A program made the translations under genes and the position numbers. Below, piece after piece: positions 32,850-48,124 of a stretch of DNA of 64,000 bases (position 1 is its first letter; every line of letters begins with the position of its first letter). Where the stretch lies: NCBI GenBank assembly GCA_019637075.1, contig JAHBWI010000001.1:124001-188000 (forward strand), read 5' to 3'. Below the pieces are notes generated by a model. That model had not been told where the DNA came from. It saw only the letters and a program-made list of their open reading frames with translations, and did no database searches. This DNA is from Nitrospiraceae bacterium. Its GTDB lineage: Bacteria > Nitrospirota > Nitrospiria > Nitrospirales > Nitrospiraceae.

Positions 32850-32894
32850 CTAGGGTCTTTGCCAGTCGGTTGAGCACAAGCTTGCTGCTAAGAC
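32850..32894 (+). promoter_or_regulatory. Dyad site plus -10 of csbD (regulon site 2)
   Basis: CTAGGGTCTTTGCCAG, 23 nt, TAAGAC. The csbD ATG follows 47 nt after the -10. Confidence 0.65.
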
Positions 32895-44027: not shown

Positions 44028-44192
44028 TCACGCCGGAGGCCGCTTTCCGACGGCCCAGCCCACAACCGCCATGATGATGAATAGCAGGAACAGGACATAC
44101 GCAATATTGGTTGCAGTTCCCGCGACGCCCGACAGCCCCAACACGCCCGCAACAATCGCCACAACCAAAAAGGTAATCGACCAGCTCAGCAT
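44028..44192 (-). CDS. DUF1328/UPF0391 small membrane protein, 54 aa
   Basis: Start [20 protein letters not shown] with AAGGAGGGAG upstream. The sequence [20 protein letters not shown] and the ending WAVGKRPPA are typical of this two-helix stress-associated membrane protein. Last gene of the minus-strand run behind site 9; the gap to the convergent kinase operon shows no hairpin. Confidence 0.85.
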
Positions 44193-44353: not shown

Positions 44354-44950
44354 TCAGAAGTGGAAGTTCACTCCGACGGTGATCATGTGGCCGTTGTCAT
44401 TGAACTTCTTGTCCTTGATGTTTTGATCCTTGGAAGAAATATCTTCCAACCACAGGTATCGATATGTGCTGTCGATGGAGACATGGTTGTTGAAAAAGAA
44501 CTGCAGGCCGCCGCCCGCATGGGCGCCGAAACGGTTCTGTGTATTCTCGTAGCTGCCGGGCCCCTTGACCGTGGTGTAGTACCAACCGCCGCCCCCGATG
44601 AGGAACGGAGCCAGCCTGGTTTGACCAAGCGGGTAGATCAAGGCCGACACCTGCACGGGATAGGTGTGCACCCGCGACCCGCCCTGGTCCTGCCGTCGGT
44701 AGTCCACCGATCCTTCGAAGGCGAGGTACTTGAACGGATAGAGCCGGACCTGCGCGCCTCCGAACCAGCGGGACTCTCCTTCCTTGGGGTCAAAATACGT
44801 TGCACGGCCGCCGATGGAGATCGGCCCGATCTCCATTTGCTGAAACAGATTGCCGTCGGTCGCCGAGACCGGCGGGGCAAACTCGGTCAGCCCCATCAGC
44901 ACACTCGCCGCCGCTCCGACCATCCACGCAGATACGGACTTTGTCATCAT
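44354..44950 (-). CDS. Outer-membrane beta-barrel protein (OmpW/OprF-fold size), 198 aa
   Basis: Start at the first Met of MMTKSVSAWMVGAAASVLMG, a signal peptide cleaved around SATDG. The mature protein is an eight-strand type barrel: ISIGGRATYFDPKEG, QVRLYPFKYLAFEGSVDYR, FLIGGGGWYYTT, FGAHAGGGLQFFFNNHVSID and a final strand ending GVNFHF with C-terminal Phe, the barrel-assembly signal. GAGGAG lies upstream. Follows the exported CsbD gene with a 97-nt gap. Confidence 0.82.
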   Translation of the reverse strand: MMTKSVSAWMVGAAASVLMGLTEFAPPVSATDGNLFQQMEIGPISIGGRATYFDPKEGESRWFGGAQVRLYPFKYLAFEGSVDYRRQDQGGSRVHTYPVQVSALIYPLGQTRLAPFLIGGGGWYYTTVKGPGSYENTQNRFGAHAGGGLQFFFNNHVSIDSTYRYLWLEDISSKDQNIKDKKFNDNGHMITVGVNFHF

Positions 44951-45047
44951 TGCAAGGGCTCCTCCTGTTTCGTGATCCGCTTCCTGCTCGAATCGCCCGC
45001 CGTCTGTCAACGGAGGGGCGATCCACATGTCATGCAGCGCGGGCGCG

Positions 45048-45422
45048 TCACTCGGTTTTCTCTGACTTCCGTTGTTCGAACCATTCATCGACCCATTGCT
45101 TCACCTCCTCTTTGCGATCGCCATAACGCTCTTGGATTTTGCCGTCGAGCTTATCGAGGCTCCCCTCGATGTACAGAAGATCGTCATCGGTAAACTTAGC
45201 CCATCTGCGTTTGAGTTCGCCTTTGAACTGCTTCCATTTGCCCTGGAATTGATCTTCGTTCATGGCCACCACCGGCAACGGCTCGTACGCCTGAAGCACG
45301 ACCGGAGACTCCACCGCAGAGACCGTAACAGCTGGGCCCGCAACCGCCGCGCAGGAAAGAATCCACGCGGCTCCGGCCAGATTCATACGCATGCTCGTCG
45401 TTCCTGTCCTCATTCGCACCAT
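45048..45422 (-). CDS. CsbD family protein with signal peptide
   Basis: 124 aa. An N-terminal signal (MNLAGAAWILSCAAVAGPAV after a basic start) is joined to a full CsbD domain: MNEDQFQGKWKQFKGELKRR, then WAKFTDDDLLYIEGSLDKLD and ERYGDRKEEVKQWVDEWF. The internal ATG of the domain aligns with the start of the cytosolic copy at 32942, so the export signal was added upstream. GGAGG 5 nt before the first ATG supports the long form. Periplasmic role unknown. Confidence 0.85.
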   Translation of the reverse strand: MVRMRTGTTSMRMNLAGAAWILSCAAVAGPAVTVSAVESPVVLQAYEPLPVVAMNEDQFQGKWKQFKGELKRRWAKFTDDDLLYIEGSLDKLDGKIQERYGDRKEEVKQWVDEWFEQRKSEKTE

Positions 45423-45497: not shown

Positions 45498-46067
45498 TCA
45501 CTGATCGCGCAGAAGACTCACCAGGTCCTCCGCATGCTCTTCTTCCTTGGCCTGAATATCCTCCAGCAGTCGGCGTGTCGTGGGGTCATCGGTCCCGACG
45601 AACAGAATCATTTCGCGATAGCTATCGATGGCAATACGTTCAGCGACGAGGTCCTCTTTGATCATGTCTTTGAGCGAGGTGCCTTCGATGTATTCGGAAT
45701 GGCTGCGACCGGAGAGACCGTCAGGGGACAAGTTGGGCTCGCCTCCCAGCTGCACGATCCGTTCAGCCAGTTGGTCGGCATGCGCCTGTTCTTCCTGGGC
45801 ATGTTGCATAAATTCCGCCTTGACGCTGTCCGAGGCGATGCCCTGAGCCATGAAATAATGCCGCTTGTACCGCAGGACACAGACCAATTCCGTCGCCAGG
45901 GCCTCGTTCAGCAATTTGAGGACGGTGTCGACACGAGCGCCGTAGCCGGGGGTCACGGCACCTTGCTCAATGTGCCGGCGAGCCCGTTCCCGCAGCGTCT
46001 TCACATCCGTCAGGAAACCGCTGGCCTGTTCAGTATCCCGTTCCTTTTCTTTTCGATCGGTCGTCAT
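45498..46067 (-). CDS. Ferritin-like protein (bacterioferritin family)
   Basis: 189 aa, start MTTDRKEKERDTEQ with AAGGAGGAAT. Four-helix bundle with diiron ligands: LLNEALATELVCVLRYKRHY, HAQEEQAHADQLAERIVQLG, EDLVAERIAIDSYREMI and IQAKEEEHAEDLVSLL (E, ExxH, E, ExxH). An N-terminal extension of about 45 residues precedes the bundle. It oxidises and stores iron or detoxifies peroxide in the cytosol. In the same minus-strand run as the exported CsbD. Confidence 0.9.
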   Translation of the reverse strand: MTTDRKEKERDTEQASGFLTDVKTLRERARRHIEQGAVTPGYGARVDTVLKLLNEALATELVCVLRYKRHYFMAQGIASDSVKAEFMQHAQEEQAHADQLAERIVQLGGEPNLSPDGLSGRSHSEYIEGTSLKDMIKEDLVAERIAIDSYREMILFVGTDDPTTRRLLEDIQAKEEEHAEDLVSLLRDQ

Positions 46068-46083: not shown

Positions 46084-46329
46084 TCATCGTCGACGCTGGT
46101 GACGGCGTCCCGACTTACTGCGGCTTTGCCCTTCGCGTTGACGACTCGACACCCAATCTCCGGCCAGGTAGGGGTGGGCGGACTCGATGCCGAGCAGCCC
46201 AGTCTTCTCGCTCTGCCGTTTTTCCCAGACCCGCCCGACCAGCGCCGCAGTCGTGGCAGCGGCGGTGACGCCCACGATGATTCCCGCCACGAGACAGGTC
46301 CGTTGAAATCCCATACGTGTGATCGACAT
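46084..46329 (-). CDS. Small membrane protein, 81 aa, probably from a leaderless mRNA
   Basis: The N-terminus MSITRMGFQRTCLVAGIIVG continues into VTAAATTAALVGRVW, one membrane helix, followed by a polar, Arg-rich tail. No ribosome site precedes the ATG; instead the -10 of regulon site 9 ends 6 nt before it, so the RNA would begin at about the first base of the codon. ATG 46314 is an alternative start. Function unknown. Confidence 0.5.
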   Translation of the reverse strand: MSITRMGFQRTCLVAGIIVGVTAAATTAALVGRVWEKRQSEKTGLLGIESAHPYLAGDWVSSRQREGQSRSKSGRRHQRRR

Positions 46330-46335
46330 GCTGTG

Positions 46336-46380
46336 ATGATACCGAGCAGGCAGGTTTGCGCGGACTGGGCTGAACCCGAG
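46336..46380 (-). promoter_or_regulatory. Dyad site plus -10 (regulon site 9)
   Basis: Minus strand: CTCGGGTTCAGCCCAG, 23 nt, TATCAT. It heads the run small membrane protein, bacterioferritin, exported CsbD, barrel, DUF1328. Confidence 0.65.
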
Positions 46381-46386
46381 TAGGAG

Positions 46387-46836
46387 CTAATCCGTACCCT
46401 GGCGGAGTTGTTGCACCGCCAGGGCGGCGGCTCGTGACAGTGCGCCGGAAATACGGCCGTCGGATGTGAGAACCGCCAAGCTCGTCTGCCCGGAACGCCG
46501 CATCGCGGCATAGGCTTCCGCCACAACGTCGTCCTCACGGCAGACGCGTGCCGAAGGAGGAAGCAGCGCCGCAATGGGCGTGTCCGCTTGAGGACAGGCC
46601 AAAGCAAGGTCCCGCTCGGAAATGGTACCGAGTAAGAGGGGCCCCTCCAACACAACGACAAGAGACGTGTCCAATGATTCCATGAGCTGGATGACCTCGT
46701 GCACCTGAGCGGCCGGAGTCGCAATGGCCAGCGCGCCGGTCATCACCTCCTTGACGCGAACGCATTCGTGCGAAAGGAGGCCCAACCGTTCCGATCGGGT
46801 GGATTCAAGGTGGATGTTGCTCACACGTGGAGGCAT
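46387..46836 (-). CDS. CBS-domain pair protein, 149 aa
   Basis: From ATG MPPRVSNIHLESTRSERLG. Two CBS motifs: VKEVMTGALAIATPAAQVHE with LLLGTISERDLALA, and IAALLPPSARVCREDDVVAE with DGRISGALSRAAAL. Stand-alone CBS pairs bind adenine nucleotides and sense energy state. GGAG upstream. Probably cotranscribed with the metallothionein gene. Confidence 0.85.
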   Translation of the reverse strand: MPPRVSNIHLESTRSERLGLLSHECVRVKEVMTGALAIATPAAQVHEVIQLMESLDTSLVVVLEGPLLLGTISERDLALACPQADTPIAALLPPSARVCREDDVVAEAYAAMRRSGQTSLAVLTSDGRISGALSRAAALAVQQLRQGTD

Positions 46837-46879: not shown

Positions 46880-47023
46880 TTACCGCGGACGGCGGCACCC
46901 TGCATGGCCGCAGGGGCAGGGTCGGCCACCCCGAGCGGCGTTGCGGCAAACATCGGAACAGAATTCCTTGCCGGGTTCGGCCTGACACCGGCAGGCCGGA
47001 TGTGCACAGGGTTTCAGAGTCAT
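46880..47023 (-). CDS. Small bacterial metallothionein, 47 aa
   Basis: ATG with GGAGG 6 nt upstream on the minus strand. Eight Cys and two His in 47 residues: KPCAHPACRCQAEPGKEFC, then SDVCRNAARG and PCPCGHAGCRRPR. The order CxHxxCxC...(Y/F)CSxxC...CxCGHxGC matches the SmtA/BmtA bacterial metallothionein fold that binds zinc or cadmium in a Cys/His cluster. It has no hydrophobic part: cytosolic. It lies between the CBS gene and the gene at 47092, all on the minus strand. Confidence 0.85.
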   Translation of the reverse strand: MTLKPCAHPACRCQAEPGKEFCSDVCRNAARGGRPCPCGHAGCRRPR

Positions 47024-47091
47024 GACAACCTCCGAAGGCTTGGGGATGACCGGACAGAACGGGACGAGTCACGCGCGTGGGACGGTTGTGC

Positions 47092-47502
47092 TCACGGATT
47101 GTCCGCCATCAGCTTCTCGCGGGGCTGACGAATCCCCAGCCACAACACGCCGTAACGCAGGGGCTTGTCCGGATTGCGCGTATAGCGGCTGCGATCCTCA
47201 CCCACATCGACGAGCCGCAAGGGCACCGTGCCTCGTTGGCGATGGTGCGGAAATGATGTCTCGAGTTCCAATTCCACCGTCTCGTCCGTGCAGGCCAGCA
47301 CGACGGCGTTGACGTTGACGGCGTCCTCGAAATCCACCCTGATCCGCTCGTCCGGATCGATCCACGGGCGGATCGCTTGAGCCTTCTCCCTCGATGACAT
47401 GACAGTCGACACGGTTTCGCCCGGAGGATCGTTCACTCCAAGCCCATGCTCGTTGTGTTTTGTCTCCGGATCTGCGTGGTCGCCGCTTCCTCTAATCATC
47501 AT
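47092..47502 (-). CDS. Hypothetical protein, 136 aa (PilZ-like beta-rich)
   Basis: Start MMIRGSGDHADPETKHNEHG without a clear ribosome site; ATG 47400 would give a 102-residue form. The C-terminal hundred residues (IRVDFEDAVNVNAVVLACTD, VELELETSFPHHRQRGTVPL, YGVLWLGIRQPREKL) have the strand pattern of a PilZ-like or small beta-barrel domain, but the PilZ RxxxR motif is absent. Function not assigned. Confidence 0.5.
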   Translation of the reverse strand: MMIRGSGDHADPETKHNEHGLGVNDPPGETVSTVMSSREKAQAIRPWIDPDERIRVDFEDAVNVNAVVLACTDETVELELETSFPHHRQRGTVPLRLVDVGEDRSRYTRNPDKPLRYGVLWLGIRQPREKLMADNP

Positions 47503-47555: not shown

Positions 47556-48011
47556 CTACTCCACCGTGACGGACCCGCTGGCAGCCGGCATTCGGTCGTG
47601 ATCGTCCGACGGTTCTGTGGCCACGATGTAGCGCTTCGTACCCAGGCGGGTAAAGCACAGCCCCGCGCTTTCGTTCGGCGCAATCACGGCACTGTTGTCG
47701 ATACCCATGCCCATCGTCTTCCCGAATCCGCGCTGGCAGGAAACCGCATGGTCCAGCGGCTCTTGAAACGACACTCGCACAGGCGTGCGGCGTTGATTGA
47801 TCCAGCGCACTTCGTCGCCCGCGTGGATTGCGAGGTTGTTCGGGGTCACGCCGTCGGTGATCGCAATATTTCGCACCGCGCCGGTCCGCACCCCGACTTC
47901 CCGCTCCGGCTTGACGCTGGAGGCCGTGGGAGAGCTCGAACAACCGGCGAGGGTGAGCGCGGCAAACCCGGTCAGCATCAGGGACGCGAGGGTGGGGGAT
48001 AGACATCGCAT
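47556..48011 (-). CDS. Cupredoxin-like lipoprotein, 151 aa
   Basis: Start MRCLSPTLASLMLTGF with AGGAG; lipobox LTLAGC. The mature part has NLAIHAGDEVRWINQRRTPV, then SAVIAPNESAGLCFTRLGTK and ends with SGSVTVE, the strand order of a plastocyanin-like domain. The blue-copper set is not complete: a Cys follows AGL, but the closing His/Met is not obvious, so metal binding is unproven. Envelope-anchored. Confidence 0.7.
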   Translation of the reverse strand: MRCLSPTLASLMLTGFAALTLAGCSSSPTASSVKPEREVGVRTGAVRNIAITDGVTPNNLAIHAGDEVRWINQRRTPVRVSFQEPLDHAVSCQRGFGKTMGMGIDNSAVIAPNESAGLCFTRLGTKRYIVATEPSDDHDRMPAASGSVTVE

Positions 48012-48080: not shown

Positions 48081-48124
48081 ACGATACCAGGAGGGCCCAT
48101 AAGCGATACTGGCGGTCTCCCTAG
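48081..48124 (-). promoter_or_regulatory. Dyad site plus -10 (regulon site 10)
   Basis: Minus strand: CTAGGGAGACCGCCAG, 22 nt, TATCGT, 70 nt before the lipoprotein ATG. It may serve the lipoprotein, 47092 gene, metallothionein and CBS genes as one run. Confidence 0.65.

Follow-up and report, generated by a model that had tools for sequence, protein, structure and literature searches.

To our knowledge, bacterial metallothioneins were long thought to be rare, and a function is known for only a few of them. The core of SmtA from Synechococcus elongatus (PDB 1JJD, family PF02069) is Zn4Cys9His2 (PMC10119931), and that of PflQ2 MT is Zn3Cys9His (PMC7387436). Zinc is bound more tightly by bacterial metallothioneins than by the animal and plant proteins (PMC10612145). 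The metallothionein of Pseudomonas fluorescens Q2-87 is dispensable for metal resistance and aids long-term survival; it is encoded in an operon without a metal regulator, and its promoter shows a 10-20-fold rise in stationary phase (PMC7387436). Mycobacterial MymT is a short, Cys-rich copper metallothionein of bacteria (PMC7387436).

In the present study, we analyzed a stretch of 64,000 nucleotides from a Nitrospiraceae bacterium (the window), in which an initial annotation had pointed to a short metallothionein gene in a stress region. The translation of the open reading frame is MTLKPCAHPACRCQAEPGKEFCSDVCRNAARGGRPCPCGHAGCRRPR; the claimed length of 47 residues, the 8 Cys, and the 2 His were confirmed (C6, H8, C11, C13, C22, C26, C36, C38, H40, and C43), as was a GGAGG sequence before the start codon (Table 1). 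The frame lies on the minus strand, which the initial annotation had not specified.

Table 1. Features of the metallothionein locus, in coordinates of the window
Feature	Position	Strand	Remarks
Palindromic site CTAGGGAGACCGCCAG	48109..48124	minus	97 nt upstream of the lipoprotein gene heading the run
151-aa lipoprotein, cupredoxin-like by eye only	47556..48011	minus	First gene of the run
136-aa protein, no Pfam match	47092..47502	minus	Homologues next to CBS and ferritin genes (4 Nitrospira loci)
Shine-Dalgarno sequence GGAGG	47029..47033	minus	5 nt before the metallothionein ATG
47-aa metallothionein-like protein	46880..47023	minus	ATG at 47023, stop at 46880-46882
CBS-domain protein (PF00571)	46387..46836	minus	Next gene after the metallothionein gene, 43 nt downstream
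Palindrome copy with one mismatch, CTCGGGTTCAGCCCAG	46365..46380	minus	Some 35 nt before the gene for the 81-aa protein
81-aa small protein, probably membrane-anchored, no Pfam match	46084..46329	minus	
Ferritin-like/bacterioferritin protein (PF00210)	45498..46067	minus	
CsbD-family stress protein (PF05532)	45048..45422	minus	
Outer-membrane beta-barrel protein (PF13505)	44354..45088	minus	True start probably further in
DUF1328 small membrane protein	44028..44192	minus	

Resemblance to known metallothioneins

In the HMMER alignments, from which the residue correspondences were read, C9, C14, C16, C32, C36, C47, H49, and C52 of SmtA correspond to C6, C11, C13, C22, C26, C38, H40, and C43 of the 47-residue protein. 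Seven Cys and one His are therefore aligned, and the two proteins have the [YF]CSxxC knuckle and the CxHxxC end in common. However, C11 of SmtA is replaced by H8, H40 and C54 of SmtA are without counterpart, C36 of the 47-residue protein is an extra Cys, and 7 residues are missing from the loop that precedes the FCSxxC knuckle; the ligands number ten, against eleven in SmtA. Instead of the SmtA-type pattern of 9 Cys and 2 His (CxCxxCxC ... YCSxxCxxxH ... CxHxxCxC), the protein has CxHxxCxC at the start and CxCxHxxC at the end. A further difference from SmtA is that no SmtB-type repressor was recognised beside the gene. The Cys order is also similar to that of Pseudomonas PmtA and PflQ2 MT (PDB 6GV6, 6GV7, and 6GRV), although these have 9 Cys and 1 His, one Cys of their N-terminal CxCxxCxC is a His in the 47-residue protein, and the latter has a shorter loop and is without their long disordered tail. 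The Pseudomonas gene, like the one in the window, has no adjacent metal regulator and lies among uncharacterised genes of its operon (PMC7387436), whereas the operon partners differ. MymT is likewise short and Cys-rich, but none of the searches retrieved it.

The ligand set is highly conserved. Among 91 aligned distinct members, picked by a regular expression for the Cys pattern, the eight Cys and the second His are present without exception, and the first His in 86. In loci that were detected by tblastn only, every full-length copy has the same eight Cys and both His, and Ser23 varies.

In the Pfam search, PF02069 (Prokaryotic metallothionein) was the sole match to the 47-residue protein (E 0.073). 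The alignment is full-length and spans the ligand positions, with residues 3-43 on profile positions 4-49 of 51, but the score of 13.7 bits is far below the curated cut-off of 33. The profile search that had been proposed as a check thus gave a match in the right place at too low a score for membership. A six-frame search of the organism's own genome with PF02069 also remained below the cut-off, and none of 198 genomes of the phylum exceeded it. In a first alignment, all 15 members matched PF02069 when matches with E up to 10 were counted, and other families were less widely matched; in a broader member set, PF02069 was the commonest family (27 of 37). NCBIfam models gave no match to the 47-residue protein or to the 37 family members. 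Against the PDB, SmtA (1jjd) was the top match of the single sequence (E 0.36), and four metallothionein chains ranked first in a profile search (E 0.001-0.014), the best of them from Pseudomonas. With a broader profile, the metallothionein match fell to E 0.16, so that the Cys-rich composition explains part of the signal. The CDGSH-type and YNG1/PHD matches in the profile search were discarded as partial Cys-rich matches. Confidence in the AlphaFold model is moderate (pLDDT 76, pTM 0.47), and the best fold match of the model, Pseudomonas metallothionein 6grv, is non-significant (E 1.6, TM 0.50). By sequence, the protein resembles metallothioneins while failing the formal Pfam family test, and the bacterial metallothioneins are its only coherent known relatives. 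The identity first suggested is in this sense retained for the ligand order and the relatives, but not as membership in a curated Pfam or NCBIfam family.

The FCSxxC knuckle is also typical of treble clefs. One alternative explanation is that the protein is an SmtA-like or treble-clef zinc-finger adaptor, which would hold structural Zn, bind a protein or a nucleic acid, and serve as no metal store. SmtA-like zinc fingers have reportedly been described as a class (Blindauer et al. 2002), a few members of the present family match DUF2116 ("Probable treble clef", best E 0.0044), and there are weak matches to Zf_WRKY19. However, ten near-invariant ligands within about 40 residues exceed the need of one or two structural Zn sites, and metallothioneins are still the best matches. 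Furthermore, apart from K4, A7, P9, and S23, the non-ligand positions are mostly variable across the family, and a conserved surface for binding was not seen. We therefore regard the zinc-finger adaptor as unlikely.

The gene run and its palindromic site

The metallothionein gene is the third in a same-strand run that extends from the lipoprotein gene to DUF1328 (Table 1), with intergenic gaps of 16-75 nt as far as CsbD. No terminator-like site was found on the minus strand between 47776 and 44519, in a scan that was itself at chance level; the sigma-70 promoter scan was also at chance level, and the island contains no Rfam elements. As for the neighbours named initially, the CBS gene is indeed adjacent and the ferritin-like gene follows two genes further on, whereas the lipoprotein gene is two genes upstream, separated by the gene for the 136-residue protein. 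The beta-barrel reading frame overlaps the CsbD gene by 41 nt; translation of the beta-barrel protein probably begins at an internal ATG, after which a signal peptide is encoded (MMTKSVSAWMVG...).

A scan of named genomes, from which the organism's own genome was possibly left out, gave 103 relatives of the metallothionein, nearly all from Nitrospira/Nitrospirales or Acidobacteria, and 80 of these were kept. In the 80 loci, which were fetched by the metallothionein alone and include some near-duplicates so that the counts are not independent, we found DUF1328 in 21, the beta-barrel, CsbD, and ferritin-like genes in 13 each, the debranching enzyme GlgX in 9, and the CBS and 136-residue proteins in 4 each. 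All of the partner genes counted are on the same strand as the metallothionein. Parts of the island are kept around the metallothionein gene in about 20 Nitrospirales loci; the gene order varies, and the first island gene after the metallothionein is usually DUF1328. A MAG of N. defluvii (L082) also has this island. Relatives of the lipoprotein were not detectable in the fetched loci. The conservation of the run in relatives is stronger evidence for a stress-region setting than the initial annotation had. In the Acidobacteria members, no conserved partners were found, and these members look solitary. In one acidobacterial locus (L099, 6001-7300), about 0.6 kb separates the metallothionein gene and a ferritin-like gene that is 63% identical to the one in the window, a hint that the pair is shared or was transferred between the phyla.

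The palindrome upstream of the run (consensus CTRGGGN4CCCYAG, inner bases often degenerate) came to light on inspection of the sequence ahead of the lipoprotein gene, followed by a check of CTAGGG; an unsupervised dyad search for regulatory motifs was unsuccessful. It is probably the element numbered regulon site 10 in the initial annotation. Eight of the 12 distinct exact CTAGGGN6CYAG sites of the 4.06-Mb genome are in the 64-kb window (at 32850, 34115, 34526, 37485, 37579, 48109, 57747, and 62012; range 32850-62027, mostly its second half), and with one mismatch 18 sites were observed against 3.2 expected; as the pattern was first read from the window, the window counts are partly circular and those in relatives are not. 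In Nitrospira metallothionein loci, a stricter form of the palindrome occurs 13 times against 0.85 expected, and it was not found in 391 kb of Acidobacteria loci. Moreover, the palindrome is directly upstream of the metallothionein gene in the closest relative (L062, CTGGGGTTGTCCCCAG) and in L114 (CTGGGGATTTCCCCAG), at distances of about 99 and about 89 nt from the ATG, respectively. The claim of a regulon site is thus supported, and extended, by the concentration of the palindrome in the window, its location upstream of the run, and its position in these two relatives. The palindrome seems to mark a stress regulon with a putative regulator, the site recurring in related Nitrospira loci. The one-mismatch copy further down suggests that a separate regulated promoter may serve the ferritin-like gene as well. 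A literature search on the CTAGGG palindrome together with response regulators found no paper.

Resistance genes often travel on plasmids. The possibility that the protein is a metallothionein for resistance to toxic metals (Cd, Zn, Cu), controlled by metal as in the SmtA/SmtB system, draws on a ligand chemistry that is the same as in SmtA, on the ferritin-like neighbour, and on the possible cupredoxin-like neighbour. However, no metal-sensor gene was recognised among the neighbours with checked families, the conserved partners are general-stress genes, the palindrome present is common to other island genes, and the plasmid collection contains no match to the metallothionein. We consider metal-controlled resistance improbable, and rank it, together with the zinc-finger adaptor, below a metallothionein that buffers metal under stress. 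The phage collection also gave no match, and a plasmid- or phage-borne resistance gene was rejected on these two results.

Conservation and distribution of the gene

Since further open frames overlap the region of the metallothionein gene, conservation is needed to decide its status. When 61 related genomes, translated in six frames, were searched with the protein, many gave clear relatives, the best with 64% identity. A strict regular expression for the Cys/His signature has one match in the window, and 92 close pairs have a median dN/dS of 0.12, every pair being below 0.5. The frame proposed initially is thus a real gene under purifying selection. That the frame is open by chance in GC-rich DNA, as its shortness and the overlap by other frames might suggest, has a negligible probability and is ruled out by this selection, by some 90 homologues that share frame, length, Shine-Dalgarno sequence, and ligand set, and by the absence of any signature match in 12 Mb of Markov-simulated DNA.

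In a profile search of 198 genomes of the phylum, 20 were carriers, of which 19 are from the order of the window's organism, and single genomes had as many as 6 matches; among 199 genomes around an acidobacterium, there were 30 carriers. Copy numbers range from one to six in the genomes of the carriers, which are of the Nitrospira lineage and soil Acidobacteria; the genome of the window has a single copy. Up to six matches were seen in genome G032, and five paralogues share a stretch of about 160 kb in one Nitrospira genome (L114 and G164/G238, contig C15, 385-544 kb). An Acidobacteria-like family member is present in a record titled Nevskia soli isolate BOG_genome_mining.15 (L127), a gammaproteobacterium by its title; this is either a transfer or a mislabelled or contaminated bin.

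Proposed role

The gene, its conservation, the ligands, the synteny, and the site enrichment were observed; from these we infer which metal is bound and in what number, how the chain folds, the co-transcription of the run, and the physiological role. It is probable that the gene encodes a small cytosolic metallothionein, of a distinct branch that we call CAHP-type after its signature, in a palindrome-controlled stress operon, and that the protein buffers or stores zinc under stress or growth arrest. The eight Cys thiolates and two His imidazoles would wrap about three, perhaps four, divalent d10 ions, most likely Zn(II). A small zinc-finger-like core would be formed by C6 and C11 with C22 and C26 of the FCSxxC knuckle, and CxCxHxxC would close the cluster. 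Three Zn(II) per chain is our best guess from ten ligands against eleven in SmtA and from the Zn4 and Zn3 cores of SmtA and PflQ2 MT.

The multi-gene stress operon would comprise the genes for the lipoprotein, the 136-residue protein, the metallothionein, the CBS protein, the small membrane protein, the ferritin-like protein, and then CsbD, and would be controlled by a regulator that binds the palindrome, not by a local metal sensor. Once growth stops or stress begins, the metallothionein may buffer or store zinc and scavenge Cd, Cu, or oxidants. Because no metal-sensor gene was recognised beside the metallothionein, a buffer for stress or starvation fits better than metal detoxification; the combined handling of metal and redox suggested initially is a possible role. 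The most likely role appears to be the buffering of zinc (or Cd/Cu) under control by stress or starvation, by a protein made together with ferritin-like and general-stress proteins; the closest tested precedent is the P. fluorescens Q2-87 metallothionein. In a literature search, no paper on metallothionein in comammox Nitrospira was found, and the titles and abstracts that combine Nitrospira and metallothionein concern pollution communities and reviews.

With rather more doubt than confidence, we put forward the wider possibility that CAHP-type proteins, with 8 Cys and 2 His, are a distinct, uncatalogued metallothionein branch of Nitrospirales and Acidobacteria, which in Nitrospira is integrated into a dedicated general-stress island under palindrome control. 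This would place zinc storage under the control of stress or starvation instead of a metal sensor. Such a branch escapes the curated thresholds of Pfam and NCBIfam, and its carriers are a major nitrifier lineage and soil Acidobacteria. The interest of the finding is moderate and comes mainly from the conserved place of the gene in a palindrome-marked stress island. Its location by ferritin-like, CsbD, and DUF1328 genes near a recurring palindrome leads to a testable proposal, namely that a metallothionein takes part in the general stress response, and the role of non-detoxifying bacterial metallothioneins becomes testable in a second lineage besides Pseudomonas.
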